Shown here: positions 3,391 to 49,929 of the stretch, piece by piece
How the letters are laid out: the number at the start of each line of letters is the position of its first letter
Numbering within the stretch: position 1 is the stretch's first letter
Assembly: GCF_014643835.1 (NCBI RefSeq)
Contig: NZ_BMKD01000003.1
Coordinates: 784,458 to 848,457, forward strand
Reading direction: 5' to 3'
DNA length: 64,000 nt
Source: Mucilaginibacter rubeus
GTDB lineage: Bacteria > Bacteroidota > Bacteroidia > Sphingobacteriales > Sphingobacteriaceae
Translations under genes and position numbers: made by a program
The notes under the pieces: model-generated
Told to the model about the DNA's origin: nothing
What the model saw: only the letters and a program-made list of their open reading frames with translations
The model's database searches: none

Positions 3391-3399
3391 TGTTGAGCT

Positions 3400-4887: not shown

Positions 4888-7800
4888 AGACACCGCAAAA
4901 GGCAGCACCTGCAAACACCAAACAAAACCAGCCCGCAAACAAGCAGGGGGCAGGGAAAGATCCTTTTTTCTCTGCCGCTCATGATGTTGAACAGGCGCAG
5001 GAAGCGCCCTTTTTTGAAGGGAATAAGGTTCAGCGTAAAATGACGGTGAATGAACCTGGCGATCATTTTGAACGGCAGGCCGACCAGGTGGCTGATAAAG
5101 TTGTTCAGCATATTAATCAGCCTAAAACCGTAGCCAACGCTGCAACTGGTTCTACTACTACCACGGGTCCTGCTAATGCAGCTACCCCCGCTGTGCAAAA
5201 GAAAGAAGATAAGAAGGAAGATAAACAGGAAAAAGAGCAGAACGGAGCCGATAAAGAATTACAGCGCCGCCCCATTTTTGAAAGTGATGGCGATCCCAAC
5301 GAGGGGAATACATTAAAACGCAGCAGCCAGTCGGCCGCTCCGGATGTATCTCCACAAACGCAACAAAAGATCGAAGGCAGCAAAGGCGGCGGCGAACCAT
5401 TGCCTGCCAATACCCGCGAGGAAATGGAAGGAGCAATGGGCAGGGATTTGAGTGGGGTACGCATCCATAACAACAGTGAAGCCGCCGGATTAAGTAACGA
5501 TTTACAGGCGCAGGCGTTTACCCACGGCAATGATATTTATTTCGGGGCGGGTAAATATGACCCGCAAAGTAAATCGGGGCAGCACTTGTTAGCGCATGAG
5601 GTGACGCATACGGTACAACAGGGGAGTGGATTAAAAAAGAAAATACAACGTAAACCAACTAAGGGCGATGTATCGGGTAATGCAGGTCAGGTTGCTACCG
5701 CCGAAAATCCGATTGATACAACAGCATCAAAGGAATCGCTTTTTATACCTAAAATAAACATACCAGGCTTAAAACTTGGCCTTATGCCTGGCTCAACAAC
5801 TAATTATTCTTTCAAAAAAACTGAGAGGTCGGGCAAACACCTTGCCGATTGGAACGACGCTGCAACCAAAGGAGCTGGTTTTGATACCGTTTTCAATAAT
5901 AAAAAAACGGCCGAGATCCCCAAAGAGGCTAACGCCTCCAATTTTTTCATGACGCTTGAGTCGGAAAAAAAACTTACTAACCTGAAGCACCTTTTTACCG
6001 GCTCCATTACCCAGCTCAAGACTACTTTTGCACGCCCGTTTTGGAACGATAAAGGTCATGAAATAAATAATGGCTATGATGTTGATCACAAAGTTGAGTT
6101 ACAATTAGGTGGAAAAGATGGCATCTCCAATCTTTGGATGCTTGAGGCCGCAGCAAACAGGTCGTCTGGTTCAAATATCAATACAGAGATCACCTCAAAA
6201 GTTGAAGCAGCATTGAATGCCATTACCACCATGCCCAACGGACAAACCAAGCCGGGTGCAGCCGAGGTAATGAGTAAATATACCATTACTGCCGGAACGC
6301 TTGACGGGAGCTTGCCTATTAGCGGCGGTAAAGAGGCCTGGGAGTTAAGTGAAATTGAGGCTGGCGACCATCTTAAAAAATTGGTATTTCTCTCAGATAC
6401 AGATAAAGCGAGAGCAAAACTTATAGATAGCACTAATCTTTCCCTGATCACGAGCGAAAGATATGGAGCAACACAAAATATTAAATGGGCCCCGGAAGCG
6501 GGTAAAACAACCGAGAAAGATGTTAATGTTCAGGTAGGGCATATAAAGCGAAACGGTGCTAATCTGAAAATAAGAAAGATTTCTTATGAAGATAAAGACA
6601 ACACCACGATACTCAGTGCGGGTTCAAAAGGATCTGCTACTATTGAAGTATTCATGGATAACGCGTTTGTGGCGGGGATATCCACAACACAACCAATTGA
6701 ACCGGTGCCCGGTATATACGGCGGTAGGTTAAGTGGTGTAGCTGTAAAACAGGCTTTAAGTGCAGGGCTAAAGGCAAAGGGATTAAGCCCCATAACAATA
6801 ACGGAGTTAGATATCGGTGAGTCTGGTTTGATAGGATTCGGCAAGATCAATACCGATGTTCCGATTATCGGAGGTTCCGCTATCGACATTATTTTTAATG
6901 AAGATGGTATCAAAATAAGTAAGGTATTTAATTCGGGAGAGATCAAGGTACCACCGCCTTTTAAAATCACCAATACTTCGCTTGAAGTATACGCAGCTAC
7001 CTCAGGAATCGGCATAAAGGGAGAAGCTAATTTTGAAATAAAGAAACTGGGTAAAGGTAAAGTTGGCGCTATGGCCAACACGTCGGGAGAGTTTGCGCTT
7101 GAGGGGGCTTTTGATTTTGATTCAAAAACCTTTAATCCGGCACAAATAAAAGCCTCCTATCGTAATGGAGAATTTAGCGCTTCGGGAGATATTGGCATTC
7201 CTGCCGGTAAAATAAAAGGTCTTAAATCGGCGCATATCAATATAAATTATGCCAACAACATATTTAATGCTTCCGGAACAGTCGAGCCTGATATCAAAGG
7301 CGTAAAAAGCGCCGAGATCCACGTTACTTATGGAAACGAAACATTGATTATCGGCGGCAGCTTCGTTCTTGACGAAAATATGCCGGGCATCCAAAGCGGC
7401 AGCGGGAATGTTGAAGTTACCCGGGGGCCGGATGAAATTTACCATGTAAAAGCCAATGGTAAGGCGATACCTAAAATACCGAAGATCAATACCGAGCTGT
7501 CAATCTCTTATGACGATGGCGCGCTGACCATTGAAGGCAAGGCATCTTACGTTGCTGACCGGGTATCAGGCGAAGTCACTGTTGGCGCAACCAATCGAGC
7601 TATTGCCGCTGATGGTACACCATCGGGCCCGGCAGGAGATAAGTTTACCGCCTATGGATCGGGTAAGTTAACGCTTAAAGTTACCGATTGGCTGCAGGCA
7701 TCAGCAAGTGTGAGGGTAACCCCAGCCGGCGAAATTGAAGTTGTTGGCCGTTTGGATCTTCCTTCGGCTGTTGATGTGTTCCCTAAAAAGAGCATCAATA

Positions 7801-8468
7801 AAGAGCTGTTCAAAGTACCAACCATCCAGATTCCCATATTCGCCATCCCGCTTGGGCCTAAGAGTATCGGTATTGTGGCCACTATTGATGGCGGCCTTGA
7901 TTTTGATGCAGCTGTAGGCCCCGGCCAACTCAAAGACGTTTTTGGACAGATAGAATTTAACCCCTCACACCCGGAAAATACACGCATTAGCGGCGGGGCA
8001 AAATTTGTGATCCCGGCGCATGCCGGTTTAAAATTAAAAGCCGCATTAGGTATTGGTCTGAGTATCGGGCCTGCCAGCGTTACCGGCGGCATCCAAATAG
8101 TTGGCGGATTAGGGTTGGAGGGTGAGGCGAGCGCGGCTGCCGACCTGGCCTGGTCGCCCACAACCGGGTTTGAGTTTAACGCTTTAGGCGAGATAGAGGT
8201 ACACCCTAAGTTTACATTTGATGTAAATGCATTCATTAAAGCCGAACTTGATCTTTTGGTTACAGATATTTCAAAAGAGTGGACTAAAAACCTGGCGTCA
8301 TTTAGTTATGGCCCTGATCTGCAGGTTAAAGTTTCGCTGCCAATCCATTATAAGGATGGCGAACCGTTTGATGTGAAAACCGATGATATTAAAGTTACCT
8401 ATCCTGAAATCAGCATTTCTGATATAGCAGGTGGTATAGCAGATAAAGTAAAAGAAGAAATGTTATGA
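4878..8468 (+). CDS. DUF4157 eCIS protein with HNH-like nuclease motif, candidate payload
   Basis: 1196 residues. The N-terminus holds two PFF-type motifs (DPFFSAAH, APFFEGNKVQRK) and an EPGDHFERQADQVADKV segment typical of eCIS-associated proteins, then a Lys/Glu linker. The DUF4157 (eCIS core) domain lies at ~165-255 with DLSGVRIH, QAFTHGNDIYF and a zincin-like HEVTH. At ~400-425 there is DVDHKVELQLGG, then ISNLW and AANRSSG, which matches the D-H...N...N spacing of HNH endonucleases. The remaining ~600 residues are Gly-rich beta-repeat sequence with repeated AEIHVTY/AHININY-like strands and a hydrophobic Gly/Ala stretch. I infer an injected or tail-associated effector; a structural role is the alternative. 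It overlaps the downstream TPR gene by 4 nt (ATGA). Confidence 0.75.
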   Translation: MAMKTPQKAAPANTKQNQPANKQGAGKDPFFSAAHDVEQAQEAPFFEGNKVQRKMTVNEPGDHFERQADQVADKVVQHINQPKTVANAATGSTTTTGPANAATPAVQKKEDKKEDKQEKEQNGADKELQRRPIFESDGDPNEGNTLKRSSQSAAPDVSPQTQQKIEGSKGGGEPLPANTREEMEGAMGRDLSGVRIHNNSEAAGLSNDLQAQAFTHGNDIYFGAGKYDPQSKSGQHLLAHEVTHTVQQGSGLKKKIQRKPTKGDVSGNAGQVATAENPIDTTASKESLFIPKINIPGLKLGLMPGSTTNYSFKKTERSGKHLADWNDAATKGAGFDTVFNNKKTAEIPKEANASNFFMTLESEKKLTNLKHLFTGSITQLKTTFARPFWNDKGHEINNGYDVDHKVELQLGGKDGISNLWMLEAAANRSSGSNINTEITSKVEAALNAITTMPNGQTKPGAAEVMSKYTITAGTLDGSLPISGGKEAWELSEIEAGDHLKKLVFLSDTDKARAKLIDSTNLSLITSERYGATQNIKWAPEAGKTTEKDVNVQVGHIKRNGANLKIRKISYEDKDNTTILSAGSKGSATIEVFMDNAFVAGISTTQPIEPVPGIYGGRLSGVAVKQALSAGLKAKGLSPITITELDIGESGLIGFGKINTDVPIIGGSAIDIIFNEDGIKISKVFNSGEIKVPPPFKITNTSLEVYAATSGIGIKGEANFEIKKLGKGKVGAMANTSGEFALEGAFDFDSKTFNPAQIKASYRNGEFSASGDIGIPAGKIKGLKSAHININYANNIFNASGTVEPDIKGVKSAEIHVTYGNETLIIGGSFVLDENMPGIQSGSGNVEVTRGPDEIYHVKANGKAIPKIPKINTELSISYDDGALTIEGKASYVADRVSGEVTVGATNRAIAADGTPSGPAGDKFTAYGSGKLTLKVTDWLQASASVRVTPAGEIEVVGRLDLPSAVDVFPKKSINKELFKVPTIQIPIFAIPLGPKSIGIVATIDGGLDFDAAVGPGQLKDVFGQIEFNPSHPENTRISGGAKFVIPAHAGLKLKAALGIGLSIGPASVTGGIQIVGGLGLEGEASAAADLAWSPTTGFEFNALGEIEVHPKFTFDVNAFIKAELDLLVTDISKEWTKNLASFSYGPDLQVKVSLPIHYKDGEPFDVKTDDIKVTYPEISISDIAGGIADKVKEEML

Positions 8469-9448
8469 GCAACCGAAGCCAACTAACCGAACTGATAAAC
8501 CTTGGTGCTATACAGCAGCTTAACGGCAATTTTGAAGCTGCCGAGGCGTATTATGCCAAAGCTGCCGATTTAAATGAGCCCAATGTTACCCTGCTCAATA
8601 ACCGGGGAATGTTGTTTTACCAGCAAAATAAATTTGCCGAAGCGAAGCTGCTGTTTGAACGTGCTTTAGAAATTGACAGCCAAAATGCTTCGGCATGGCT
8701 TAATTTGGCTAATACCGAAGTTTTGCTGGGTCAGTATGATAAGGCTCTAAACGCTTTCAGGCAAACCATTACGCTTAAGGCCGATCAGTTTGAAGCCTGG
8801 GAAGGCTTGGCAAAACTGTATATGTTATCGGCAGATATGGAAAGCGCTGAAACATGCTGGCTTAAAGCGGTGGAACTTAACCCCACAAGTTTAAATTTAT
8901 TGATGGGACTGGCGCAGGTCTATCTTTCAACCGGCAGGTATGATGAAGCTTTTGAAATGGCCGACTATGTTTTATCAGAGAACCCGCAAAACAGCAGGGC
9001 ATTGCAAACTGCGGGTCTGTCCCAATTAATGATAAAAAACTATGCGTCGGCTACAGGGTACCTGATCAGGTATTTGATGCTGTTTCCTGGCGATATTGCG
9101 GTACGTAACCACCTGGCCGTTGCTTATTTGCAAAGCGGTCAGTTAAATGAAGGGGCGGCAGAATACGAGCGGATCCTGGAATATGACCCTGAAAACGAGG
9201 AGATAAGGCTAAATACAGGAGTGCTTTGCCTTGGGCTTAACCGTTTTGACGCCGCGTTTGCACACCTGGAACTATTGCTTGAACAACATCCCGAAAACAA
9301 AAAAGGAAAACTATACCTGGGCATAGCGTTAGCTAATTTAAATCAGAGAGATAAGGCAAAGATGATTTTTGAAGACCTGCTGCATGAACCCGGCGAATGG
9401 GGCGCTCATGCCAAAAAGCAATTGGATCTGTTAAACAATTTAAACTAA
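8465..9448 (+). CDS. TPR-repeat protein of the eCIS operon
   Basis: 327 residues made almost entirely of tetratricopeptide repeats. The 34-residue period is visible through recurring A-W-x-x-L-A / Y-x-x-A-x-x-Y patterns (for example NASAWLNLANTEVLLGQYDK and DQFEAWEGLAKLYM). No signal peptide or membrane segment is seen, so it is likely cytoplasmic. It sits between the two DUF4157 genes with a 4-nt overlap upstream and a 7-nt gap downstream, which ties it to the injection-system operon. A role as payload chaperone or assembly adaptor is inference from context only. Confidence 0.8.
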   Translation: MSNRSQLTELINLGAIQQLNGNFEAAEAYYAKAADLNEPNVTLLNNRGMLFYQQNKFAEAKLLFERALEIDSQNASAWLNLANTEVLLGQYDKALNAFRQTITLKADQFEAWEGLAKLYMLSADMESAETCWLKAVELNPTSLNLLMGLAQVYLSTGRYDEAFEMADYVLSENPQNSRALQTAGLSQLMIKNYASATGYLIRYLMLFPGDIAVRNHLAVAYLQSGQLNEGAAEYERILEYDPENEEIRLNTGVLCLGLNRFDAAFAHLELLLEQHPENKKGKLYLGIALANLNQRDKAKMIFEDLLHEPGEWGAHAKKQLDLLNNLN

Positions 9449-9455
9449 ACCTCCT

Positions 9456-10409
9456 ATGAAATACATCCAAAATACACGCCAGCCGCTTAGTCAGAAACAG
9501 GCGGATAAAGCCGAGAAACCGTTTTTTAATGGCAGCCGCGAAAAAAGCAAGCAGGATAGTGATGCCTTTTTCCAGGCGAGGAAGATTGACGGCAACCAGG
9601 ACAGTGCCCTTGAACAGGAGGCCGATGCGGTAGCACATAAGGTGACTATGGCACAGCAGGCAACTGCTAATTCATCGCAGCGAATGGGGCAAATGAGCGT
9701 TCAAAAAAAGGGGGCGGATGAGGAAAAGGATGCGAAATCGACTCAGAAAAAAGAACAAAAGGACGAGAAGGAGGAAGGCAAGCCGCAGAAAAAAGACGAA
9801 AAGAAAGAAGAAGAGAAACCAACTCAGAAGAAAGAGGAGGATAAAAAAGATAAAGAGCCCCAAAAGAAAGAAGAAGATAAAAAGGATAAAGAAGGGGTTC
9901 AGAAAAAAGAGGAAGAGAAAAAGGACAAAGAACCGCAAAAGAAGGAAGAAGACAAAAAAGACAAGGAGCCGCAAAAAAAAGGCGAAGAAGATAAAAAGGA
10001 CGAAGGCAAGCCTCAGAAAAAAGAAAAAGGCGAAGAAAAAGACGATAAGGCTGCTGCACAAAAAAAGGAAGAAAAAGGCGGCGGTGTAGAAAAAACCGAA
10101 GGCAGGCCCGAACCCCCGGAAGCAAAGTTCGACAGGTTGCTGAACGAAAGTAAAGGTGGAGGCAGTCCCTTACCTGCCAAAGTACGTACGCAATTGGAGC
10201 ATCAGATGAACGCCAATTTTGAACAGGTGAAAATCCACACCGGGCAGCAGGCTGTTGAGCTTTGCAACCTTTCAAAAGCGCAGGCGTTTACGCATGGTAA
10301 CGATATTTATTTTAACGCAGCCAAGTTTGACCCCGAAAGCACGGCAGGTATGAACCTGCTGGCGCACGAGTTAACCCATGTTGTACAGCAAAACGGTCCG
10401 CGTAAATAA
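9456..10409 (+). CDS. Minimal DUF4157 protein with Lys/Glu repeat linker
   Basis: 317 residues. The N-terminus carries the PFF motifs (EKPFFNGS, DAFFQARK) and an EQEADAVAHKV segment like its larger neighbour. Residues ~90-210 are a low-complexity array of QKKEE/KKDKEP units encoded by an A/G-rich DNA tract. The DUF4157 domain fills the C-terminus (FEQVKIHTG, QAFTHGNDIYF, HELTH zinc-type motif) and the protein ends ten residues after that motif. There is no effector domain, so it may be a loading adaptor, or the remnant of an effector whose C-terminal domain was lost. The ATPase gene follows 1 nt after its stop. Confidence 0.8.
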   Translation: MKYIQNTRQPLSQKQADKAEKPFFNGSREKSKQDSDAFFQARKIDGNQDSALEQEADAVAHKVTMAQQATANSSQRMGQMSVQKKGADEEKDAKSTQKKEQKDEKEEGKPQKKDEKKEEEKPTQKKEEDKKDKEPQKKEEDKKDKEGVQKKEEEKKDKEPQKKEEDKKDKEPQKKGEEDKKDEGKPQKKEKGEEKDDKAAAQKKEEKGGGVEKTEGRPEPPEAKFDRLLNESKGGGSPLPAKVRTQLEHQMNANFEQVKIHTGQQAVELCNLSKAQAFTHGNDIYFNAAKFDPESTAGMNLLAHELTHVVQQNGPRK

Positions 10410-10410
10410 A

Positions 10411-11739
10411 ATGGATACTAATATTAAGCAATTAAAAGCGCTGATGCAGTATACAGCCGGTTGTGTTGAAGCCAGGTTGCAAACTGTATTTGGTAACGAC
10501 GCAACTTATTTGCCTCCGCTGCTGCCCCAGTTAGAGCGAAATGGTAGTGTGCTCGAAAAATTAATTGATGATCATGGCTTGAACAGCAATGAGGTTATTA
10601 TACTAATGATGGCCCTGGTACCTCATTTACAGGTTGAGTTTTTTGATGAAATTATTCAGCCTTACATGCGTGAATCGGGTGATTTTCAGCAGATTGGTGG
10701 AGTTAGGAGCCGTAACGGACGCAGCTTTTTGCCAACCGGTCAAACAGCGGTTTTTGTTTTGGCAGGCGATGACCTGGAAAAGCGGCTGGAGATAGCTGAT
10801 CTTTTTCATCATCATAGTAATTTGGCGAAGCAGCACATTTTATACCTGGAGGATGTGCCCGAAGGTGAGCCTGCTTTATCCGGCAGATTATTGTTACAGC
10901 CCGAATATGTTGAACTTTTGATCAGCGGCACCGAATCTATTCCCAAACTAAGTATGAACTTTCCGGCACAATACCTGGAAACTACCTATAACTGGGATGA
11001 CCTTGTACTCAATGATACCACCCGCAGGCAAATTGCGGAGCTGGAAAACTGGGTGAACTACCAGCAGGTATTAATGACCGACTGGGGCATGGAACGGAAA
11101 CTGAAACCAGGCTATCGGGCATTATTTCACGGCCCGCCGGGAACGGGAAAAACACTTACCGCATCTCTGCTTGGTAAGTACACGGGTAAGCCGGTTTTCA
11201 GGATCGATCTGTCAATGATCGTATCCAAGTTTATAGGCGAAACAGAAAAGAATCTCTCCAAGCTATTTGAAAAGGCCGATAATAAAAACTGGATCCTGTT
11301 TTTTGACGAAGCCGATGCGCTTTTTGGCAAACGGACTAACGTTAAAGATGCACACGATAAATATGCCAACCAGGAAGCATCGTACCTGCTGCAGCGTGTG
11401 GAGCAGCATAATGGCCTGGTAATACTGGCAACTAATTTTAAAAATAACATTGATGAGGCCTTTATGCGCCGGTTTCAGTCGGTTATAAACTTCCCGCTGC
11501 CCAATGCCGATGAACGCTATACTATCTGGCAAAAATCATTTCCGCCTAAAGCCAACCTCAACGGGCACATTAACCTTGAGCAGATCTCGCGTAAATATGA
11601 GCTCAGTGGTTCCGGGATCTTGAATGTAGTACAATTTGCCTGCCTGCAAATGCTGGCCCGCAAGGAAAACCGCATAACCTCTGAACTAATATTGGAAGGT
11701 ATTGAAAGAGAGTATACTAAAGAGAACCGGGTTTGGTAG
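10411..11739 (+). CDS. AAA+ ATPase of the contractile injection system (Afp15-like)
   Basis: 442 residues from the ATG at 10411. A longer frame starting at 10378 overlaps the upstream DUF4157 gene and gives an unlikely N-terminus, so I prefer 10411, one base after the preceding stop. The Walker A motif GPPGTGKT is at ~241-248, Walker B FFDEADAL at ~297, and sensor/arginine-finger segments (LATNFKNNIDEAFMRRF) follow. eCIS loci regularly end with such a ClpV/ATPase-like AAA+ protein that is thought to act in assembly or particle release. The N-terminal ~200 residues are a helical domain of unknown role. It is the last gene of the operon in this direction. Confidence 0.85.
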   Translation: MDTNIKQLKALMQYTAGCVEARLQTVFGNDATYLPPLLPQLERNGSVLEKLIDDHGLNSNEVIILMMALVPHLQVEFFDEIIQPYMRESGDFQQIGGVRSRNGRSFLPTGQTAVFVLAGDDLEKRLEIADLFHHHSNLAKQHILYLEDVPEGEPALSGRLLLQPEYVELLISGTESIPKLSMNFPAQYLETTYNWDDLVLNDTTRRQIAELENWVNYQQVLMTDWGMERKLKPGYRALFHGPPGTGKTLTASLLGKYTGKPVFRIDLSMIVSKFIGETEKNLSKLFEKADNKNWILFFDEADALFGKRTNVKDAHDKYANQEASYLLQRVEQHNGLVILATNFKNNIDEAFMRRFQSVINFPLPNADERYTIWQKSFPPKANLNGHINLEQISRKYELSGSGILNVVQFACLQMLARKENRITSELILEGIEREYTKENRVW

Positions 11740-31408: not shown

Positions 31409-32980
31409 TTATAAATCTATATTGTTAATAATGTTCAGCGCCGAGCTCCCGTTTTCAATTGCTGCTAACACATCAAAAACTTTATCGCTCCAGCCTGCAA
31501 TTAAATGCACATCGTTTTGCAGTAACTGCAAAGGTACCTGTCCATAGCCCGCCAGGTCAAACAGGTACAGTTTTGCCTGTGGTGCAATGTGTTGTTTGTA
31601 GTAAACCCACTGCTCCTGGATATGGTTGCTACCTCCGTTACTGTTCCACAATTGGCAATCGGTAAATAACATTACCTTATCCATTTGTACGCGGCGGGTA
31701 CTCAGGTCATGGATAACCAGGTAACCATTGGTAGAGTAACCCACTTCACCTTCGCGGCGATAAAACTCCTGCACGTTGCCCAAAATGTTGCCGCGTGGTA
31801 CAGTAATGGTCTTCCAGCGGTCACCAAACATACCTACCTCCACATTTTTACAACGCGATTGCAGCAGCATCGCCAGCATTAAACCAATATCGTACAATAG
31901 TACTTTTGACTTAGCCGAGATCGGTTGCTGCATGGATCCGGACACGTCGCAGGCCAGCAATACACGGGTATTTTCATCAAAACCCCTGATATTGGCTGCG
32001 CTTGCCTGTACCGCTTTTTCCAATGCATCCAGCAGTTCTCCGGTGTAGCCTTTGTTGCCAGTTATAGCTGCTTTGGCTGCCCTTGCAATGTTTTGCACCG
32101 CCGAGGTTGGCGTTATCAGCTCACGGTAAGCAGCCAGGTAGCGGAATGGAAACTGTTTGGCTTTAGCCACCTGTTCGCCGTCGGCAATGGTTGCGCATAC
32201 TTTTTTAAAGTGTGCATAGCTTACGCCTGCATCCTGTATATTGCGCAGGTTACGCAGCAAGGCCATATAGCCAACTTTACCGCTATCAATCAGTTCTTCC
32301 CATTTGGCGCGGAACGCTATTGCTTTTGCTTCAGCACTGTCAAAATTCAGCTGACCAAGGGCCGAGAGTTCTGTTTCCCAAGTGTAAGGCGTTTGCAGCT
32401 CGTTTGTGGCTATCTTGTTAAAGATCAACTGCTGCAGCTCATCTTTAGCACGTGGGTGCACCAGGAACAAAGCGTCGCGCATTTTAATAGCGCCATCGCG
32501 GTTATATTTAGCAAACTGGTATTCGTCAAAGCGGTTAAAAGCCTGTGATAAACCTTTTTGCATTTGCTTTGACAAGCGGTTGAGCTTTTTAGTGCCCTTA
32601 CGCTGGTTTAATGTTTCGTAGCAGGCCAGCAGCTCGGTGATCTCATCTGCGCGACCGATAACCCCGTCGGTAACCCGGGCAACCAGATCGTTGCCCGAGT
32701 GCAGCTTAGCCAATTCGGTAACCAGCACCAGCGGTACCGAACGCATATACATTTTGGTACGTGCATAAACTGCCAGTTTACCAACAAATACCGGGTTGCA
32801 TTTAGCTATCAAATTACGCAGGCGCTCCATACGTGCCTGGTCTTTTTCATAAAAGGTGTCGTTTAAGCTCCAGGTTACTACCGTGGTGTACAATTCCAGT
32901 TCGGCACTCATGGTAAAGGCTTTTGCACCTTCATGGTTTACCGTTTTGGTTTTTACTCTGCTTAACAGGTTGAATTTCAT
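31409..32980 (-). CDS. rsr: Ro60/TROVE domain protein (Rsr)
   Basis: 523 residues. The N-terminal TROVE domain of HEAT-like repeats runs from VKTKTVNHEGAKAF to ~320, with FVGKLAVYARTKMYMRSVP and LVHPRAKDELQQL typical of Ro60 orthologues. The C-terminal von Willebrand A domain has a complete MIDAS, DVSGSM (~343), plus MLFTDCQLW. Ro60 is a ring protein that binds misfolded RNA ends in its pore and Y RNA on its rim; in bacteria it works with exonucleases such as PNPase in RNA processing and decay. A strong GGAGG lies 8 nt before the ATG, unusual for this phylum. The gene is preceded by the palindromic operator shared with rtcB and followed by six Y RNA-like units on the same strand. Confidence 0.93.
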   Translation of the reverse strand: MKFNLLSRVKTKTVNHEGAKAFTMSAELELYTTVVTWSLNDTFYEKDQARMERLRNLIAKCNPVFVGKLAVYARTKMYMRSVPLVLVTELAKLHSGNDLVARVTDGVIGRADEITELLACYETLNQRKGTKKLNRLSKQMQKGLSQAFNRFDEYQFAKYNRDGAIKMRDALFLVHPRAKDELQQLIFNKIATNELQTPYTWETELSALGQLNFDSAEAKAIAFRAKWEELIDSGKVGYMALLRNLRNIQDAGVSYAHFKKVCATIADGEQVAKAKQFPFRYLAAYRELITPTSAVQNIARAAKAAITGNKGYTGELLDALEKAVQASAANIRGFDENTRVLLACDVSGSMQQPISAKSKVLLYDIGLMLAMLLQSRCKNVEVGMFGDRWKTITVPRGNILGNVQEFYRREGEVGYSTNGYLVIHDLSTRRVQMDKVMLFTDCQLWNSNGGSNHIQEQWVYYKQHIAPQAKLYLFDLAGYGQVPLQLLQNDVHLIAGWSDKVFDVLAAIENGSSALNIINNIDL

Positions 32981-33049: not shown

Positions 33050-33572
33050 GAAAAATATTTTTATTTTTTTTGAATTTATTATTACGCTGGGCAGTTGTTA
33101 GCTTCTTACAACCTTAAAAAAGTGGGCATAAACGAAGAATATTTTAGGTTTTCAACTTTCGGTGCGCAAGCCAGCGTTAGGGATTGTAGTGTAAAGCCCA
33201 CAGCGAGGGGTGAATTGTGGGTCGGAAAGGCGAGGACTTGCAACGGAAAGCCCGGGCCGTAGGCAACGCCATTGTCCGAATCAGAATTTACATAATTTGA
33301 GAATTGACTGAATGCTAAACTAATTGAAAAAGATCTTAATCCCTTAATTGGGAGATGATATAAACAAATCCGAAACCGAAAATTCCAAAAATTCCAAATC
33401 CGAAATCAATTATGGCGTTACCTGCGGCCCGCGCTATACGCTCATACTGCACAGGTATTAGCCACATTGGCCGGTATCCGCTACTATCGCTAACGCGGAG
33501 CTTGGGGTAATTGAAAAAAAAATATTTTTCATAATTATTTTTTAATTTAAATATTGTTTGTATAATTGCATC
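33050..33572. other. Intergenic region with GC-rich repeat-like patches
   Basis: 523 bp between the ro60 promoter and the tRNA leader. About 33160-33295 (GGAAAGGCGAGGACTTGC, GGAAAGCCCGGGCC) and 33415-33510 (GCGTTACCTGCGGCCCGC, GCTAACGCGGAGCTTGGGG) are GC-rich patches unlike the AT-rich surroundings. They look like fragments of dispersed elements seen in Sphingobacteriales genomes. No gene is supported. The final 60 bp are strongly AT-rich and probably contain the tRNA operon promoter. Confidence 0.4.
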
Positions 33573-33632
33573 ATGAAAACAACAATATGTATACAGTGTC
33601 CATCACCCATACTGATTTATCAGAGGAGATAG
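33573..33632 (+). CDS. Attenuation leader peptide of the tRNA operon
   Basis: A 19-codon ORF, MKTTICIQCPSPILIYQRR. Eight codons specify Ile, Cys or Pro: ATA at codons 5, 7 and 13, ATT at 15, TGT at 6 and 9, CCA at 10, CCC at 12. The three tRNA genes immediately downstream are Pro(UGG), Ile(UAU) and Cys(GCA), which read just these amino acids. The last codons (TTTATCAGAGGA, 33616-33627) form one strand of an antiterminator helix, so a ribosome reaching the stop would mask it. No Shine-Dalgarno is seen. A TATAATTG at 33561-33568 would start transcription at or near the ATG, so translation may be leaderless or the promoter may lie further upstream. Confidence 0.7.
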   Translation: MKTTICIQCPSPILIYQRR

Positions 33633-33701
33633 CTGTGTATATATAGTAAGTATATAACAACATTAAAAAATCCTCTTAGATAAAAACTAAGGGGATTTTT
33701 T
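33616..33701 (+). promoter_or_regulatory. Transcription attenuator: competing antiterminator and terminator
   Basis: Terminator: ATCCTCTTAG (33670-33679) pairs with CTAAGGGGAT (33687-33696), extended by five A-T pairs into a T tract, giving a 15-bp stem. Antiterminator: TTTATC-AGAGGA (33616-33627) pairs with TCCTCT (33671-33676) and GATAAA (33679-33684), 12 bp with a 2-nt bulge. The two helices use the same strand and exclude each other. The left strand lies within the end of the leader ORF. A ribosome stalled on the early ATA, TGT or CCA codons leaves it free, so the tRNAs are transcribed; a ribosome at the stop codon covers it, so transcription ends. Confidence 0.8.
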
Positions 33702-33708
33702 GCTTTAC

Positions 33709-33782
33709 AGGGTAGTATATCAATTGGTCAGATTACCACATTTGGGATGTGGAGGCTCCCGGTTCAAGTTCGGGTTACCCTA
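33709..33782 (+). tRNA. tRNA-Pro(UGG), divergent
   Basis: Acceptor AGGGTAG/TTACCCT, anticodon arm CCACA-TTTGGGA-TGTGG with anticodon TGG at 33743-33745, T-arm CCCGG-TTCAAGT-TCGGG, discriminator A. The D-arm is weak (three pairs, ATC/GAT, with a U-U mismatch). It lacks the usual C1-G72 of bacterial tRNA-Pro, having A1-U72 instead. No CCA is encoded. It is the first gene of the attenuated tRNA operon and starts 8 nt after the terminator T tract. Confidence 0.85.
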
Positions 33783-33795
33783 CTGATTTACAGCT

Positions 33796-33868
33796 GGAAA
33801 TATAGCTCAATGGTAAGAGCAGCACCCTTATACGGTGTCGGTTAAAGGTTCAAGTCCTTTTATTTCCA
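33796..33868 (+). tRNA. tRNA-Ile(UAU), rare anticodon
   Basis: A complete cloverleaf: acceptor GGAAATA/TATTTCC, D-arm GCTC-AATGGTAA-GAGC, anticodon arm GCACC-CTTATAC-GGTGT with anticodon TAT at 33829-33831, T-arm AAAGG-TTCAAGT-CCTTT, discriminator A. Most bacteria read AUA with a lysidine-modified CAU anticodon, so a UAU tRNA is unusual and suggests a mobile-element or specialised origin. The leader ORF has three AUA codons. Confidence 0.88.
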
Positions 33869-33874
33869 CAACAT

Positions 33875-33948
33875 GGCCGGTTGCCCGAGTGGTTCAAGGG
33901 AGTCCTCTGCAAAAGGAATGTCCGCAAGTTCGAATCTTGTACCGGCCT
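33875..33948 (+). tRNA. tRNA-Cys(GCA)
   Basis: Acceptor GGCCGGT/ACCGGCC, anticodon loop CTGCAAA with anticodon GCA (33907-33911 region), T-arm GCAAG-TTCGAAT-CTTGT, discriminator T as required for tRNA-Cys. The anticodon stem has a G-A mismatch at its base. CCA is not encoded; CTTTTATTTTT follows and may end the transcript. Confidence 0.85.
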
Positions 33949-34279
33949 CTTTTATTTTTGCCTGCGTAATAGCATTACGCCCGGGCCTTAACTTTCATAA
34001 TCCCGGCGCAGAGCCGGGTATGGATAACTATTGTTTTTACTTATTTAATAGTATTTTTTATGATATTTGCTGAGTATTTCTTAGCTTCTGTGATAGTTGA
34101 TGGAAGTTATAAGTCTCAATAAGAATTGCGCACCTTTGGCCTTTCTCAAAACCAGGGGCTTTTGATCTTAATTAAGGCAATATCTATTTAAAACAAACGT
34201 TGAGACAGGCAGTAGAGAAATTAAGGGGGAATATGGTTTTGGAAAGGCTTAATATTTCCTCGTCAAATACATCCACAGA
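33949..34279. other. Intergenic region after the tRNA operon
   Basis: 331 bp. It holds a GCGTAAT-AGC-ATTACGC hairpin (33964-33980) and TCCCGGC-GCAGA-GCCGGG (34001-34018), a near copy of the hairpin at 22822. No gene seen. Confidence 0.45.
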
Positions 34280-43329: not shown

Positions 43330-44073
43330 TCATTCCCCAAAAAGGATCCGCGTCATTTCCTCATAATTATTCAGGAAATGTTTGGTAACCATATAATGCT
43401 CCGTTTCTTCGTAACGAATCTGTTTTATGCCCGAATCGTCTAACTGGTAAATGGTCGCACCCGGGTAGGCTAATAAAATGGGGGAGTGGGTGGCTATAAT
43501 GAACTGTGAGTTTTCATTCACGAGCGTATTGATGAGCGAGAGTGCCGCCATCTGCCTGTTTGGCGATAATGCGGCCTCTGGCTCATCAAATATGTAAAGC
43601 CCGTTGCCGGTAAGCCTATTGGTTAGCGTAGCCATGAACGATTCGCCGTGTGAGCATTCATGAAGCGACCTTACTCCGTATTGCCGTTCAAACCTGCCTT
43701 TGTCGTTTTCATAAACATTTTCCATATAGGTGGCTACGTTATAAAAGCTTTCGGCCCGAAGAAAGAAATGATCGGTTGGCTTTTTGTAGCTTTTTATACC
43801 GGTTAAATAATTGAAAAGTTGCGACGAATTATTATGCGTTTGAAACTGCGCGTTTTTTGAGCCTCCCTCGATACTGAAACCCATATGCAAAGCGATGGCC
43901 TCTACCAGCGTTGATTTCCCCGAACCATTTTCGCCAATGATAAAAGTAACATCGCGATGGAACTTTAATGACTTTAGGCTTCTGATGGAAGGGATGTGAA
44001 ATGGATAGGCATCAAAAGATGGTACCGTATCGCGTTTCAGTTGAATCTCCTGAAGAAAAGGTTTAGCTTCCAT
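43330..44073 (-). CDS. AAA/ABC-type ATPase, stand-alone
   Basis: 247 residues. Walker A GENGSGKST (~47), a signature-like CSHGESFM (~150), Walker B LYIFDEPEAAL (~172) and an H-loop IATHSPIL (~205) make a complete ABC-type ATPase with no attached membrane or nuclease domain. Similar small ATPases act as partners in repair or defence modules, and also occur alone as housekeeping genes of unknown role. It is just upstream, on the opposite strand, of a reverse transcriptase locus, but the divergent orientation gives no evidence for one system. Confidence 0.8.
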   Translation of the reverse strand: MEAKPFLQEIQLKRDTVPSFDAYPFHIPSIRSLKSLKFHRDVTFIIGENGSGKSTLVEAIALHMGFSIEGGSKNAQFQTHNNSSQLFNYLTGIKSYKKPTDHFFLRAESFYNVATYMENVYENDKGRFERQYGVRSLHECSHGESFMATLTNRLTGNGLYIFDEPEAALSPNRQMAALSLINTLVNENSQFIIATHSPILLAYPGATIYQLDDSGIKQIRYEETEHYMVTKHFLNNYEEMTRILFGE

Positions 44074-44728: not shown

Positions 44729-46279
44729 ATGTCATTCGATCCCATTATATGGTCAGAATTTGAAGTAAAGGCAAGAGAATCTTCCCCGAAAAAGTATGTT
44801 CATTTCGATAGGCCGATCAATATCGAACCAGCTCTCATACAACTTAAAGCCCTACTGCAAGACATTTCCGGCCGTGGTATCGCTAAACACTCCTTTCTTC
44901 CTTTTTTAAAAGTTATCATCAAAACGCCTCGTTTTCGCTATGAAGATGAATTGGGTAAGTACGCTCTTAAAACCAAAGAGCGGCCCATTTCATTTGCTGC
45001 ACATTTTGATGCGCTCATTATCGGCTATTTTGACCTGTTGCTAAAAAGACGTTATCAGACTTACATACGCGCGGGCGGATTTTCTGAAAGTATACTGGCT
45101 TATAGGGATGATTTAGACGGGAACTGCAATATTCAGTTCGCTAAGGAAATCTTTGACCAGATCTCCAACCATTCGAAGCCAAACGAACTATACTCAGCTA
45201 TTGGTTTCGATATCAAAGGCTATTTTGATACTATTCCGCACGAAGAATTGAAAAGGCATTGGTGTACCGTGCTGGGCGGGTCGCAATTAGACGCCAATAC
45301 ATTTGCTGTTTTCAAAGCGTTGACAGCCTATAGCTATACTTATGCTGATTCTTTGAAAAAGCATTTTAACTATGGTCGAGTGCCCAAAGGTAAATGCCTC
45401 TTGGATATGATACCAGTAGCAATGACCGTTGGCAAGAGCAGGCACGATGCGTTTGATTATTTACGGAGCAGGAACCTTATTGTCAGAAATCAAGCAGTAT
45501 TAAAAATCGATGATGCCAATCATCCATTGGGTATCGGATCATTGTCGATCGGCATTCCGCAAGGTTCGCCGATCAGTGCGACCCTATCCAATGTTTACCT
45601 GCTACAATTTGATCTGCATATGAGCAATCTTTGCCGTAATATGAATAGTTTCTACCGACGTTATTGTGACGATATCCTAATCGTTTGCAAAACTAAGGAT
45701 AAGGTTTATCTACATAACAAACTATGTGAGCAGATTCGATTTCATGGTTTGACAATACAATCGAAAAAGACGGAGATTATCGACTTTCGTTTTGTAAAAA
45801 AAGAACTCCGGTCATTCGATGGCGCATTAGGGGCTTTACGTGAAAAAAATAAAAAACTACAATACCTGGGATTTGAATTTGACGGACAACGGGTTTATAT
45901 CAGGCCTGGAAGTTTATCCGCTTATTTCAGGAAAATGAAAGCGGGTATTCGTAATACTCTCATAAAAGCCTATGGTAAGCATTCCAATGGTCCAAAGCTG
46001 TTGACAAAGGGCCTATTTGATAAATACAGCCATGTTGGCCGCAATAATTTCGTAACGTATGCTTATCGCGCCGCATCAATCAGTTACGGGCGGGGAGTTA
46101 GAGCGAAACAGGGATTTAACTCACCTGAGATTAAAAAACAACTTTCCAGGCATTTCCGCATCCTGCAAAGTGAGATCAAAAAGGAAAATGAGCAGCGCTA
46201 TGCACTTAAGCAAAAGGAAATTCTACACAAGATCCCAAAAGGAAAAAAAAGGAAAATTCCGGTAAAAAGAGTTTTGTGA
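44729..46279 (+). CDS. Antiviral reverse transcriptase, DRT2-like
   Basis: 516 residues. Reverse transcriptase motifs are intact: motif A FDIKGYFDTI (~157), GIPQGSPISATLSNVYL (~274), catalytic YCDD (~311-314) and LQYLGFEFDG (~375). The N-terminal pattern, KYVHFDRPINIE, AKHSFLPFLK, AAHFDALIIGYFDLLL and ESILAYRDDLDGNCNIQFAKEIF, matches my recollection of defence-associated DRT2 (UG2) enzymes rather than retrons or group II introns; there is no maturase or endonuclease domain. The C-terminus is very basic. The gene starts 22 nt after the large hairpin of the upstream RNA. DRT2 protects against phage by rolling-circle reverse transcription of that RNA. Confidence 0.7.
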   Translation: MSFDPIIWSEFEVKARESSPKKYVHFDRPINIEPALIQLKALLQDISGRGIAKHSFLPFLKVIIKTPRFRYEDELGKYALKTKERPISFAAHFDALIIGYFDLLLKRRYQTYIRAGGFSESILAYRDDLDGNCNIQFAKEIFDQISNHSKPNELYSAIGFDIKGYFDTIPHEELKRHWCTVLGGSQLDANTFAVFKALTAYSYTYADSLKKHFNYGRVPKGKCLLDMIPVAMTVGKSRHDAFDYLRSRNLIVRNQAVLKIDDANHPLGIGSLSIGIPQGSPISATLSNVYLLQFDLHMSNLCRNMNSFYRRYCDDILIVCKTKDKVYLHNKLCEQIRFHGLTIQSKKTEIIDFRFVKKELRSFDGALGALREKNKKLQYLGFEFDGQRVYIRPGSLSAYFRKMKAGIRNTLIKAYGKHSNGPKLLTKGLFDKYSHVGRNNFVTYAYRAASISYGRGVRAKQGFNSPEIKKQLSRHFRILQSEIKKENEQRYALKQKEILHKIPKGKKRKIPVKRVL

Positions 46280-46529: not shown

Positions 46530-47984
46530 CTAGTCCTCCGGCTTTTCCTTAGCATCAGCCATCCGCACTATCCTCGGCTGAAAGCTCGCCAGTACATCAA
46601 CCAGATCATGTTGGGCGGCCATCACGGCATGGATATCCTTGTACACCATCGGGGCTTCGTCAAGGTCACTTCCCATCAGGGTGATGCGTTTATCTACCAG
46701 GTTAGCGGCAACCGCTTTTGGATCCACGGTTTTAAAGGCGGCGCTTCGACTCATTAAACGGCCTGCACCATGCGATGCCGAGTTGATGGATGCAGCATCA
46801 CCCTTACCACGTACCACAAACCCAGGTGTGCTCATGCTGCCGGGAATGATCCCAAGTACACCTTCACCTGCCGGTGTTGCGCCTTTTCGGTGAACCATTA
46901 CTTCGGTACCATCGGCAAGCTGCTCTTTCCAGGCAAAGTTGTGGTGATTTTCTATCATCATTACCGGTTTAAGGTTAAGCGCACGTGCTATTTTATTATG
47001 GATCTCGTGGTGGTTGGCACTGGCATAATCGCCGGCAAGGTTCATGGCAATCCAGTATTCCTGCCCCTCGTCATTATCTAAATTTAACCATGCCAAATGT
47101 TTGGCTTCATGCGGAAGCTTGGTTTTGCTCATAGCAATTTTTGAGTAATGATCGGCAATGCTCCCACCAAACCCGCGTGAGCCCGAGTGCGATAACAAAG
47201 CCAGGTAACTACCTGTCGGGATGCCTTCGAGGGTATCTTCGGCAACGGTAAGCTCACCCCATTCAACAAAGTGGTTGCCGGTACCTGAAGTTCCCAATTG
47301 GGCATAAGCCTTATTCTTCAGGTTCCGGATTGTCTTGGTTTCGCTCCATACAGGGCTGTCGAACAGCGAGGTATCAAAATGCGTTTTGGTAACCCCGCCA
47401 ATCCCAAAGTTGGTATGATCAAGCAAAAGGCCTTTAAGCATGTCGGTTTCGGTATCAACTACACCGGCAGGCAAATCAAAAATGCTCAGGCACATGCGGC
47501 AGGCAATATCTACCCCAACGGCAAAGGGGATGATGGTATTGGCAGTTGTAGCCAGTACGCCTCCAATAGGCAAGCCGTAACCCTGGTGCGCATCGGGCAT
47601 TAAAGCGCCTGCTACGGCTATGGGTAATTTAACCGCGGTTTTCATCTGCGCAAGCGCACCCACTTCAATATGCTCAAGGCCGTAAACCGGGAAATCGGCA
47701 ATTTCCTGTTTCAGGGCAAAATTGGTTCGCGGCTGTTTCAAAAATTTTCCTTCTTTTCGTAAGTCGATTACCGCTTCGGCCAGGTTCTTGAACTTACCGC
47801 CTTTTTTAAGGGCGTAAGGCATCGGGTCGTCAATAAGGGCTTCCAGGTTGGCCAGGATCTGCTCCTTATCCATTACACCGTGTTTTAACAGGCCATTGGC
47901 CACACGGCTAAAGTTCTCTAATATCTTTACGTCGTTAATACCTAATGAGGTTAATTCGTTGTTGCTTATTTTTATCTTTTCCAT
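46530..47984 (-). CDS. rtcB: RNA-splicing ligase RtcB
   Basis: 484 residues, full length for the family. DAHQGYGLPIGGVLA, GVDIACRMCLSIF (metal-binding Cys), TGNHFVEWGE, LSHSGSRGFGG, MIENHHNFAW and SASHGAGRLMSR with the His that is guanylylated are all present. RtcB uses GTP and Mn2+ to join RNA 2',3'-cyclic phosphate or 3'-phosphate ends to 5'-OH ends, repairing tRNAs and other RNAs cut by endonuclease toxins. It is divergent from a WYL regulator, and its promoter shares a palindromic operator with ro60. No rtcA cyclase or archease gene is in the window. Confidence 0.96.
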   Translation of the reverse strand: MEKIKISNNELTSLGINDVKILENFSRVANGLLKHGVMDKEQILANLEALIDDPMPYALKKGGKFKNLAEAVIDLRKEGKFLKQPRTNFALKQEIADFPVYGLEHIEVGALAQMKTAVKLPIAVAGALMPDAHQGYGLPIGGVLATTANTIIPFAVGVDIACRMCLSIFDLPAGVVDTETDMLKGLLLDHTNFGIGGVTKTHFDTSLFDSPVWSETKTIRNLKNKAYAQLGTSGTGNHFVEWGELTVAEDTLEGIPTGSYLALLSHSGSRGFGGSIADHYSKIAMSKTKLPHEAKHLAWLNLDNDEGQEYWIAMNLAGDYASANHHEIHNKIARALNLKPVMMIENHHNFAWKEQLADGTEVMVHRKGATPAGEGVLGIIPGSMSTPGFVVRGKGDAASINSASHGAGRLMSRSAAFKTVDPKAVAANLVDKRITLMGSDLDEAPMVYKDIHAVMAAQHDLVDVLASFQPRIVRMADAKEKPED

Positions 47985-48288: not shown

Positions 48289-49350
48289 ATGCCTGTAAAC
48301 CGCAATGCCCTTATCCGTTACCGAACCATCGACAGTTGCCTGCAAAACCGCCGCAGGCAATGGACGCTTGACGACCTGATTGAAGCCTGCTCCGAAGCTT
48401 TGTACGAATACCAGGGGATAGACAGCGGGGTAAGCCGCCGCACCGTACAGGCCGATATTGAAATGATGCGCAGTAATAAGTTGGGGTACGAAGCGCCTAT
48501 TGTAGTGGTTGATAAAAAGTATTACACCTACTCCGACAAAAATTACAGCATCAATAACATCCCCCTCAATAACCAGGACATGCAGGTGCTTAGCGAGGTA
48601 GCCGGTTTGCTGGGCCAGTTTAAAGGCCTGGGGCATTTTGCCGACCTTAACGAAATGGTAACCAAACTGGAAGACAAGATCTACAGCCAGAAAACACGCA
48701 GTGTGCCGGTAGTTGATTTTGAAAAGAACGATAACTTGAAGGGATTGGAATGGATTGAGATTATCCGCAAGGCTATTGTAAGCAAGAATACGTTGTGTGT
48801 TAGCTATCAGTCATTCAAAGCAAGGGAGGCCAGTACATTTTGCTTCAGCGCTTATTTGCTGAAGGAGTACCGTAACCGCTGGTTTATGCTGGGAGTAAAG
48901 AATGTAGGAAATAAACAATTGCTTACACTGGCGCTTGACAGGATTCAGACTGTCGAAGTACACGCTGATAATTATATTGAAAATACACAGGTTAACCTGG
49001 CTACTTATTATAATGATGTATTAGGCGTAACTAAATCCGCGGGACAGCGCGATGTTGAGGTTACTTTTTGGGTAGATGATAAAAACGCTCCTTATGTTGT
49101 TACGAAACCTTTACATCACACCCAAAAGATACTGCAGGTTACAGTAGATGGGACAATATTCAGCATAAAAGTGGTTTTGAATTTTGAGCTTGAACGGGAA
49201 TTGCTCGGTTTCGGGCCTAAACTGAAAGTGCTTGGTCCGCGGATTCTGGTTAAGCAAATGAAGGATCTGTACCGAAAATCACTGGAGCATTATGCTGGGG
49301 ATAGCCCCATCCCGCAAGGAGGTAATTTGAGCAGGTTGTTAAATTCGTGA
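48289..49350 (+). CDS. WYL-domain transcriptional regulator, likely RNA-repair regulator
   Basis: 353 residues from the ATG at 48289; a GTG at 48256 lies inside a repeat element and is rejected. The N-terminal winged helix (RNALIRYRTIDSCLQN, then SGVSRRTVQADIEMMRSN) is followed by a WYL domain (~140-220: LCVSYQSFKAREASTFCFSAYLLKEYRNRWFMLG in parts) and a WCX-type C-terminus. WYL domains bind ligands, probably nucleic acid or nucleotide, and regulate phage-defence and DNA-damage genes. It is divergent from rtcB and in one operon with kptA (24-nt gap). By position it is the best candidate to bind the palindrome shared by ro60 and rtcB. In enterobacteria the same job is done by the unrelated sigma-54 activator RtcR. 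Confidence 0.88.
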   Translation: MPVNRNALIRYRTIDSCLQNRRRQWTLDDLIEACSEALYEYQGIDSGVSRRTVQADIEMMRSNKLGYEAPIVVVDKKYYTYSDKNYSINNIPLNNQDMQVLSEVAGLLGQFKGLGHFADLNEMVTKLEDKIYSQKTRSVPVVDFEKNDNLKGLEWIEIIRKAIVSKNTLCVSYQSFKAREASTFCFSAYLLKEYRNRWFMLGVKNVGNKQLLTLALDRIQTVEVHADNYIENTQVNLATYYNDVLGVTKSAGQRDVEVTFWVDDKNAPYVVTKPLHHTQKILQVTVDGTIFSIKVVLNFELERELLGFGPKLKVLGPRILVKQMKDLYRKSLEHYAGDSPIPQGGNLSRLLNS

Positions 49351-49374: not shown

Positions 49375-49929
49375 ATGATAAGCGAAAAAGAAACGACCAG
49401 CTTAAGCAAATTTTTAAGCCTGGTATTACGTCATCAGCCCGAAGCAATAAATATTAAACTTGATGAGCAGGGCTGGGTAGCCGTTGACGAGTTGCTGCTG
49501 AAAGCGGCTGCACATGGTAAAGCCATAACTCTTGAAATACTAAACCACATAGTTGAAACTAACGCCAAAAAGCGTTTCGCATTTGATGGTGCCAGGCAGA
49601 AGATCCGCGCCAGCCAGGGGCATTCGGTTGAGGTTGAGCTGGGTTATGAAGCACAAATACCACCGGATGTGCTATATCACGGTACAGGGAGCCAGTCGGT
49701 TGAGGCGATTTTGCAAACCGGGCTCGAAAAGCGGAGCCGGCAGCACGTACACCTGAGCCGCGATCTTGAAACGGCCGTTAAAGTTGGTCAACGCCATGGT
49801 AAACCTGTGGTGTTAACCGTTGCGGCGGGTGAAATGCACCGGCTGGGTCATAAATTCTACCTGTCAGAAAACAAGGTGTGGCTTACCGATTTTGTACCGA
49901 CAGATTTTATCGGAAAATATTCCTCTTAA
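49375..49929 (+). CDS. kptA: RNA 2'-phosphotransferase (Tpt1/KptA)
   Basis: 184 residues, normal for the family. SLSKFLSLVLRHQPEAINIKLDEQGW holds the N-terminal Arg-His pair; LYHGTGSQSVEAILQTGL and RQHVHLSRDLETAVKVGQRHG carry the NAD+-site motifs of Tpt1/KptA. The enzyme transfers an internal RNA 2'-phosphate to NAD+. RtcB does not leave a 2'-phosphate, so the usual fungal-type reason for Tpt1 is absent; RNA end ADP-ribosylation or other repair junctions are possible. The co-location with the WYL regulator and rtcB is strong evidence for a role in RNA repair. Confidence 0.93.
   Translation: MISEKETTSLSKFLSLVLRHQPEAINIKLDEQGWVAVDELLLKAAAHGKAITLEILNHIVETNAKKRFAFDGARQKIRASQGHSVEVELGYEAQIPPDVLYHGTGSQSVEAILQTGLEKRSRQHVHLSRDLETAVKVGQRHGKPVVLTVAAGEMHRLGHKFYLSENKVWLTDFVPTDFIGKYSS

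Follow-up and report, generated by a model that had tools for sequence, protein, structure and literature searches.

The stretch of Mucilaginibacter rubeus DNA analysed here (64,000 nucleotides, called the window below) very probably carries an operon of extra, backup tRNA genes under the control of a ribosome-mediated transcription attenuator (Table 1). Leader-peptide attenuation of this operon had been proposed in an earlier note on the same DNA, and the proposal gains from comparison with relatives, which keep the leader, whose leader codons follow the tRNA genes, and in which the helices covary.

Mucilaginibacter species are soil bacteria. When 149 genomes of the genus were searched with a DNA query made of the leader, tRNA-Pro and tRNA-Ile of one locus (L022; E up to 1e-3), 72 gave matches, and 61 of the 149 carry a leader together with a tRNA array, in 62 loci, some with one decayed tRNA; these 62 and the window form the main set of 63 loci. 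The remaining matches comprise divergent forms in G072, G088, G089, and G100, a remnant in G011, and six weak matches (G069, G094, G105, G106, G108, and G137), among which G105 alone was examined and holds a fifth divergent form (L267). Also outside the main set are L169–L174, which have no Pro-UGG/Ile-UAU pair, the remnant L175, and L176–L181, L265, and L266 from beyond the genus.

Table 1. Features of the leader, its tRNA operon, and the neighboring genes (window coordinates)
Feature	Positions	Strand	Basis
−7 promoter box TATAATTG	33561..33568	+	box form and spacing alike in 62/63 loci
Leader ORF, 19 codons, MKTTICIQCPSPILIYQRR	33573..33632	+	open in 63/63 main-set loci
Protector hairpin (codons 33585–33597 pairing with post-leader 33632–33644)	33582..33647	+	single-sequence folds
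Apical hairpin CTGA-TTTA-TCAG	33612..33623	+	compensatory changes
Antiterminator, leader strand	33616..33627	+	leader end is best complement of terminator 5′ arm, 68/69 loci
Antiterminator, second strand (terminator 5′ arm and loop)	33671..33684	+	pairing, permutation test, folding
Intrinsic terminator hairpin including T tract	33665..33701	+	−16.1 kcal/mol, z −5.8; covarying pairs
tRNA-Pro(UGG)	33709..33783	+	ARAGORN and Rfam RF00005
tRNA-Ile(UAU)	33796..33869	+	ARAGORN and Rfam RF00005
tRNA-Cys(GCA)	33875..33949	+	ARAGORN and Rfam RF00005
Ro60 (TROVE and Ro60 vWA domains)	31409..32980	−	domain matches
RtcB RNA ligase	46530..47984	−	linked gene
WYL/WCX-domain protein beside RtcB	48289..49350	+	domain match
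RNA 2′-phosphotransferase (KptA/Tpt1)	49375..49929	+	close to RtcB

The 19-codon leader of the earlier note was found unchanged when the window was read again. It runs ATG AAA ACA ACA ATA TGT ATA CAG TGT CCA TCA CCC ATA CTG ATT TAT CAG AGG AGA TAG, and its candidate regulatory codons are the three ATA, one ATT, two TGT, one CCA, and one CCC that the note had listed. A short 5′ ORF of the attenuator type stays open in all 63 main-set loci and begins with ATG in 62 of them (GTG in L161). By its sequence the putative −7 box in front of the window leader is of the Bacteroidota type; four nucleotides (33569–33572) separate its last base from the first base of the ATG, and a box TATNNTTG lies exactly 4 nt 5′ of the start codon in 62 of the 63 loci (L144 differs), a count made with a pattern script that demands the 4-nt spacing. 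A looser box search found 61 of 63, missing L144 and the GTG-start L161. The −7 box TAnnTTTG of Flavobacterium psychrophilum sits at −12 to −5 (PMC9723704), and this geometry, when applied to the leader, places the transcription start at the A of its ATG. The transcript is thus predicted to be leaderless, starting at or beside the leader ATG. Leaderless mRNAs make up merely 5.5% in F. psychrophilum (PMC9723704), and the Bacteroidota are said to be a phylum without Shine-Dalgarno sequences (PMC6847099). A Sigma70 promoter pattern scan of the window returned nothing above chance.

The terminator had been placed by the earlier note at 33670–33696 plus a T tract; the hairpin itself is borne out, and its extent proved slightly larger, with stem arms that fold at 33665–33679 and 33687–33701. 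A terminator pattern scan of the window found none above chance, which we attribute to the scan's rule that the T tract lie outside the stem, since here it lies inside. The competing antiterminator that had been claimed (33616–33627 with 33671–33684, 12 bp with a 2-nt bulge) reappears with 11 of its 12 pairs when 33616–33684 is folded (−16.0 kcal/mol, z −3.9). Within the leader, it is the end that complements the terminator 5′ arm best in 68 of 69 loci (the main set together with L170 and five divergent operons), at a mean of −9.1 kcal/mol vs −2.0 kcal/mol elsewhere; L044 breaks this rule and L172 pairs weakly. Covariation is also seen for the extended antiterminator pairs that reach into the terminator loop: over 54 distinct pairs the native mean is −12.6 as against −11.2 for swapped partners, and none of 5000 permutations, which ignore kinship, was as low as the native pairing (L106 is among the single loci that oppose the trend). 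Predicted pairing and covariation together thus point to mutually exclusive antiterminator and terminator structures 5′ of the tRNA genes, weak in L044 and L172. A stall on the last ATA (codon 13) had been named as a weakness, in that the ribosome would partly mask the antiterminator site; this drawback looks smaller now, as the core common to the relatives is placed more downstream (about AGAGGA with UCCUCU).

A small apical hairpin near the leader end reads CUGA-N4-UCAG (41 loci), CCGA-N4-UCGG (20), or CCGG-N4-CCGG (one), and in no case among these 62 are the two forms mixed (L044 is outside the codon rule). Aligned across the 63 loci, its variable pair reads U-A 41 times and C-G 22 times with no break, and the innermost pair has a single break. 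An rpoB tree was built that covers 57 of the 61 genomes (G071, G116, G142, G148, and the window are absent from it); on it each side of the variable pair changes eight times, and seven independent pairs agree (p 0.0156). The covariation by which the earlier note had proposed to judge the helices is seen in the apical hairpin and in both the terminator and antiterminator helices.

A protector hairpin, absent from the earlier note, joins the regulatory codons to the stretch that follows the leader stop. The leader-only fold of the window reaches −18.1 kcal/mol with a z of −1.7, which is not significant, and z is below −2 in 30 of the 63 loci. The protector pairing is predicted in all ten loci folded singly, and swapping its strands between clades gave mixed results. 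RNAalifold did not recover from the alignment the stem that single-sequence folds show, our guess being that the clades are gapped differently. When the transcript is modelled as cut 5′ of the terminator 3′ arm, the antiterminator forms with a mean probability of 0.69 if no ribosome is present, so the protector hairpin would be leaky; the mean is 0.93 to 0.97 for a ribosome stalled with codon 5, 7, 9, 10, or 11 in the A site (0.96–0.97 for codon 7, 9, 10, or 11), and 0, by construction, for a ribosome at the leader stop. An ATG TAT TGA mini-frame recurs right after the leader stop (for example in L093 and L096) and overlaps the protector strand; it may be nothing more than that. In L181 (genome G355) a terminator of the same type follows an ATG TAT TGA stretch, and as neither leader nor tRNA was found there this locus appears to be a remnant.

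The earlier note also proposed that the leader codons be followed in related genomes. Those lying 5′ of the apical hairpin were compared at the 63 main-set loci with the tRNA genes behind the terminator, whose states were taken from ARAGORN (normal and relaxed) and BLAST and scored by hand, not blind, the leaders being already known. A Cys codon is present in 40 of 40 operons with tRNA-Cys(GCA) and in 0 of 23 without it, where L109 (an extra loop base) and L099 (a cut 3′ part) were scored as having the gene; L030 and L162, both without tRNA-Cys, have a TGT within the apical hairpin, beyond the counted region. Phe codons occur in all 12 leaders whose operons hold tRNA-Phe and in 11 of the 51 others, two of these 11 (L105 and L152) having a decayed Phe gene. 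Gln codons are found in 44/44 operons with tRNA-Gln and in 15/19 without, at a mean number of 2.4 vs 1.1. All seven Pro-Ile arrays that include Gln-CUG use CAA for Gln in the leader, a codon that Gln-CUG should not be expected to read under standard pairing. Of the Ile codons in this part of the leaders, 131 of 133 are ATA, and the only main-set array with tRNA-Ile(GAT), L158, holds one of the two ATT codons, this being one of its two Ile codons. There is no Pro codon in the L142 leader and no ATA in that of L160, and L163, L165, and L168 keep Pro codons where ARAGORN calls no tRNA-Pro. Thus Cys and Phe codons do follow the tRNA genes; judged from the sequences, codon tracking appears clear for Cys and partial for Phe and Gln.

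Stretches resembling tRNA-Cys in which, by eye, the GCA anticodon has been lost lie between tRNA-Ile and tRNA-Gln in six operons (L162, L164, L165, L166, L151, and L028), and in none of these six does the leader carry a Cys codon 5′ of the apical hairpin.

On the rpoB tree, tRNA-Cys and the Cys codon change five times each and all five independent pairs agree; the sign test gives p 0.0625, the minimum that five pairs can reach, and so few pairs do not suffice alone. Three independent pairs agree for Phe, none disagrees, and two show no difference. A Pagel-type likelihood test of dependent vs independent change, run with a script written for this analysis, supports dependence both for Cys (LR 34.1, p 7e-7) and for Phe (LR 19.4, p 7e-4).

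The divergent operons carry other tRNAs and other codons. L169 has tRNA-Pro(CGG) alone behind a leader (MNQTSIPCLSPCPGSLGG) whose three Pro codons are all CCG, and L267 has tRNA-Gln(CTG) alone behind a leader (MKARSIQQHFQQSFCSRG) with three CAG, one CAA, and no Pro codon. L171, with genes for Pro-CGG and Gln-CUG, has two CCG and four CAG in its leader (MKTPSIQRQDPQQRC); the leader of L172 has one CCG, three CAG, and one CAA, and that of L173 has CCG, CCA, three CAG, and three CAA. In an attenuator the codons should match the tRNAs of the operon, and such a match is seen in the Cys and Phe tracking and in these CCG/CAG leaders, while Ile is not clean and its codons are poor witnesses: ATA is retained in five leaders without tRNA-Ile (L169, L171, L172, L173, and L267), where it may be held in part by an RNA pairing, CAAUAC with GUAUUG. 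Other codons are found without their tRNAs as well. The L169 leader contains two Cys codons, with no tRNA-Cys called in the partly masked stretch that follows. That of L180 contains Cys and Pro codons in front of a single tRNA-Ile, that of L170 contains Phe and Pro codons in front of a single tRNA-Gln, and beyond the genus Phe codons stand without an intact tRNA-Phe in L176–L179, L265, and L266.

The three tRNAs that the earlier note read behind the terminator are all called by both programs used. Seven nucleotides lie between the end of the T tract and the start of tRNA-Pro, which leaves hardly any space for a separate tRNA promoter. That array tRNAs are extra copies was seen in one complete genome, SMC90, where the array Pro, Ile, and Cys genes are additional to two other Pro-TGG genes, one Pro-GGG gene, and two other Cys genes, and where Ile-GAT and CAT genes are also present (identical copies with identical flanks were merged, hence 53 tRNA genes vs 61 Rfam matches); the array tRNAs differ in sequence from the other copies. 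As a control, one tRNA-Gln(CTG) gene outside arrays was taken from each of 20 genomes (19 solitary, one, L273, after tRNA-His): by pattern search and by eye none of the 20 has a leader of the array type, two chance 8-codon ORFs were seen, and no attenuator terminator was seen. A known riboswitch, T-box, or Y RNA was considered for the window and set aside, Rfam giving only tRNA at the gathering score, as was an amino-acid biosynthesis attenuator, the genes directly behind the terminator being tRNAs.

Among the loci compared, no intact Pro-Ile array without a leader was found. Arrays that kept their tRNAs and lost the leader would have spoken against the earlier note, and the only leaderless ones are L174 (the second locus of G004) and L175 (G011), in both of which the Pro and Ile genes are decayed; ARAGORN still calls a tRNA-Gln in L174. 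Beyond the genus, the same leader type occurs in L176–L179, L265, and L266, and L180 has a leader, without a promoter box, over a solitary tRNA-Ile. In L176, L178, L179, L265, and L266 two leader-terminator modules precede the array in tandem, or two complete modules follow each other, and the second leader is without a promoter box. In an order-level search of 400 genomes with a covariance model, all matches below E 1e-10 are loci with this type of leader, and they fell in G461, in G462, or in genomes that searches of the genus and the family had already found; among weaker matches those of G105 (L267) and G355 (L181) were examined, and G161 (L268) and others were left out, these others being taken as noise. 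Related terminator sequences are also present elsewhere in array genomes. Three phage records gave matches, two of them being the same phage, matched on tRNA genes, and the third unannotated. In the Sediminibacterium metagenome-assembled locus L055 no leader was seen by eye before the tRNA array; Ro60 and ten tRNAs lie there at 1650–3490, and the gene before the first array tRNA we take to encode an RNA ligase.

In the window the Ro60 gene, whose closest match found is from Mucilaginibacter gossypii (98% identity), lies 0.6 kb upstream, and the genes for RtcB, the WYL protein, and KptA lie 13–16 kb downstream. RtcB of the window type is present in 47 of 61 array genomes vs 28 of 88 others (Fisher 6e-8) and Ro60 in 36 of 61 vs 18 of 88 (Fisher 2e-6), in tests over 149 genomes that ignore kinship and genome incompleteness. 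Of the 47 genomes that have both, 29 have no more than 40 kb between RtcB and the array. In flanks of about 5 kb on each side of the 28 loci fetched by their array (L141–L168), RtcB was found in five and Ro60 in five. RNA damage may accordingly be the setting in which the operon acts, the RtcB linkage being the best pointer to it.

We propose that RNA polymerase would begin at or near the leader ATG, as the box geometry suggests. When all codons are read fast, the ribosome would reach the leader stop and cover the antiterminator strand, the terminator would form just before the first tRNA, and the operon would be off. When charged tRNA is scarce for a regulatory codon (in the window, Ile-AUA, Cys, or Pro), the ribosome would stall, the antiterminator would capture the terminator 5′ arm, and transcription would continue into the tRNAs. 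From these sequences we infer both leader translation and terminator readthrough. Since the leader has codons of the operon's own tRNAs, the operon would sense a decoding capacity that it can itself restore, and loss of a tRNA may turn on its replacement.

What sets off such a device is less certain than the device itself. The natural trigger is most likely tRNA damage or another translation stress, judging from the linkage to RtcB, KptA, and Ro60, and a putative tRNA-cleavage response, as the earlier note had imagined, is helped by the physical linkage to RtcB. We lean, with some reserve, toward an emergency tRNA kit: the leader would test the codons of the tRNAs that the operon can replace and fire when any one cannot be decoded, together with RtcB, KptA, and Ro60 the kit would make up an RNA-damage island in which broken tRNAs are repaired as well as replaced, and leader and tRNA genes would co-evolve through gains and losses of tRNAs. 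It is distinctly possible, if not what we would expect, that the same attenuator answers amino-acid starvation or ribosome-targeting antibiotics as part of a general translation-stress response. The leader should stall under any shortage of charged tRNA, and the 26-tRNA operon of Anabaena is induced by translation-targeting antibiotics (PMC10272220); however, an added tRNA would be of little help if the amino acid itself were absent, and the RtcB, KptA, and Ro60 linkage may point to RNA damage.

The RNA structures could also be real and be read by a protein or small molecule, the ORF being a by-product whose codons follow ancestry. The ATA-CAA stretch and the leader end do look conserved as pairing partners, and ATA persists without tRNA-Ile, yet this reading leaves unexplained both the Cys result, with its repeated changes on the tree, and the CCG/CAG-rich leaders over Pro-CGG and Gln-CUG, and no Rfam family but tRNA reaches the cut-off in the window; we regard it as improbable. 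More improbable still is a leader RNA that serves as a Y RNA for the adjacent Ro60: their proximity in the window and their co-occurrence across genomes would fit, but there is no Rfam Y RNA match in the window, and a Ro60 match is absent from 25 of 61 array genomes, a count that incomplete genomes may inflate. That the whole arrangement is chance, the leftover terminator of an upstream gene beside a random short ORF, is scarcely credible in view of a leader open at all 63 loci, the covariation, and control tRNA-Gln genes without the device, even if the promoter and terminator pattern scans found nothing above chance and related terminator sequences exist elsewhere in these genomes.

Ribosome-mediated attenuators are known from amino-acid operons of the trp, his, and ilv type, where the mechanism is textbook knowledge (see PMC1183508). 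The Mucilaginibacter device shares with them the short leader ORF with regulatory codons, the competing antiterminator and terminator, and, as a prediction, a protector pairing of the codons; it differs in that it would control tRNAs, with codons that follow the operon's tRNA genes, in that one leader mixes the codons of several tRNAs, and in its predicted leaderless transcript. T-box riboswitches couple transcription antitermination to uncharged tRNA by direct binding. They are alike in tying antitermination to uncharged tRNA and differ in binding the tRNA directly without a leader ORF. Salmonella Rsr is, by its gene name, a Ro60 homolog. In the Salmonella rsr-yrlBA-rtcBA RNA repair operon, which is implicated in tRNA repair, RtcR binds tRNA fragments (PMC7790460); this operon likewise has RtcB and answers damaged tRNAs, and it differs in its RtcR control and in that the abstract names no tRNA genes (PMC7790460). 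The nearest functional relative found appears to be the Anabaena trn operon, an extra tRNA operon that stands beside the housekeeping tRNAs, is normally silent, and is induced by translational stress (PMC10272220). It is plasmid-borne, holds 26 tRNAs, and differs in being repressed by a DNA-binding protein, TrcR, which also represses rtcB; the words "leader" and "attenuation" are absent from the text of the paper (PMC10272220). For a Bacillus tRNA operon, attenuation about 2 kb upstream has been speculated upon, and "leader peptide" is absent from the paper (PMC4448311). Among the matches listed from open-licence PMC full text, a body of text that mostly excludes the subscription literature, no paper on leader-peptide attenuation of tRNA genes was found. 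Attenuation itself is a known class of mechanism, and its use on tRNA genes may be new here.

The usual view of tRNA genes is that promoters, growth rate, and processing control them. In Mucilaginibacter tRNA supply would appear to be governed by a feedback that senses decoding itself, one codon at a time. The leader-array loci form a natural record of codon–tRNA co-evolution, and the device is a possible sensor for the tRNAs that are attacked in nature and gives an opening for studying why tRNA genes are accompanied by RtcB and Ro60.

Two other regions of the window may be mentioned. Between an AAA ATPase gene (43330–44073) and RtcB lies a reverse transcriptase gene (44729–46279) whose product matches PADLOC Drt2 (E 5.5e-127) and is likely an anti-phage reverse transcriptase beside the RNA-repair genes. 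Several large ORFs at 3400–11739 may, from their sequence, encode proteins akin to contractile-injection or tail-associated proteins.
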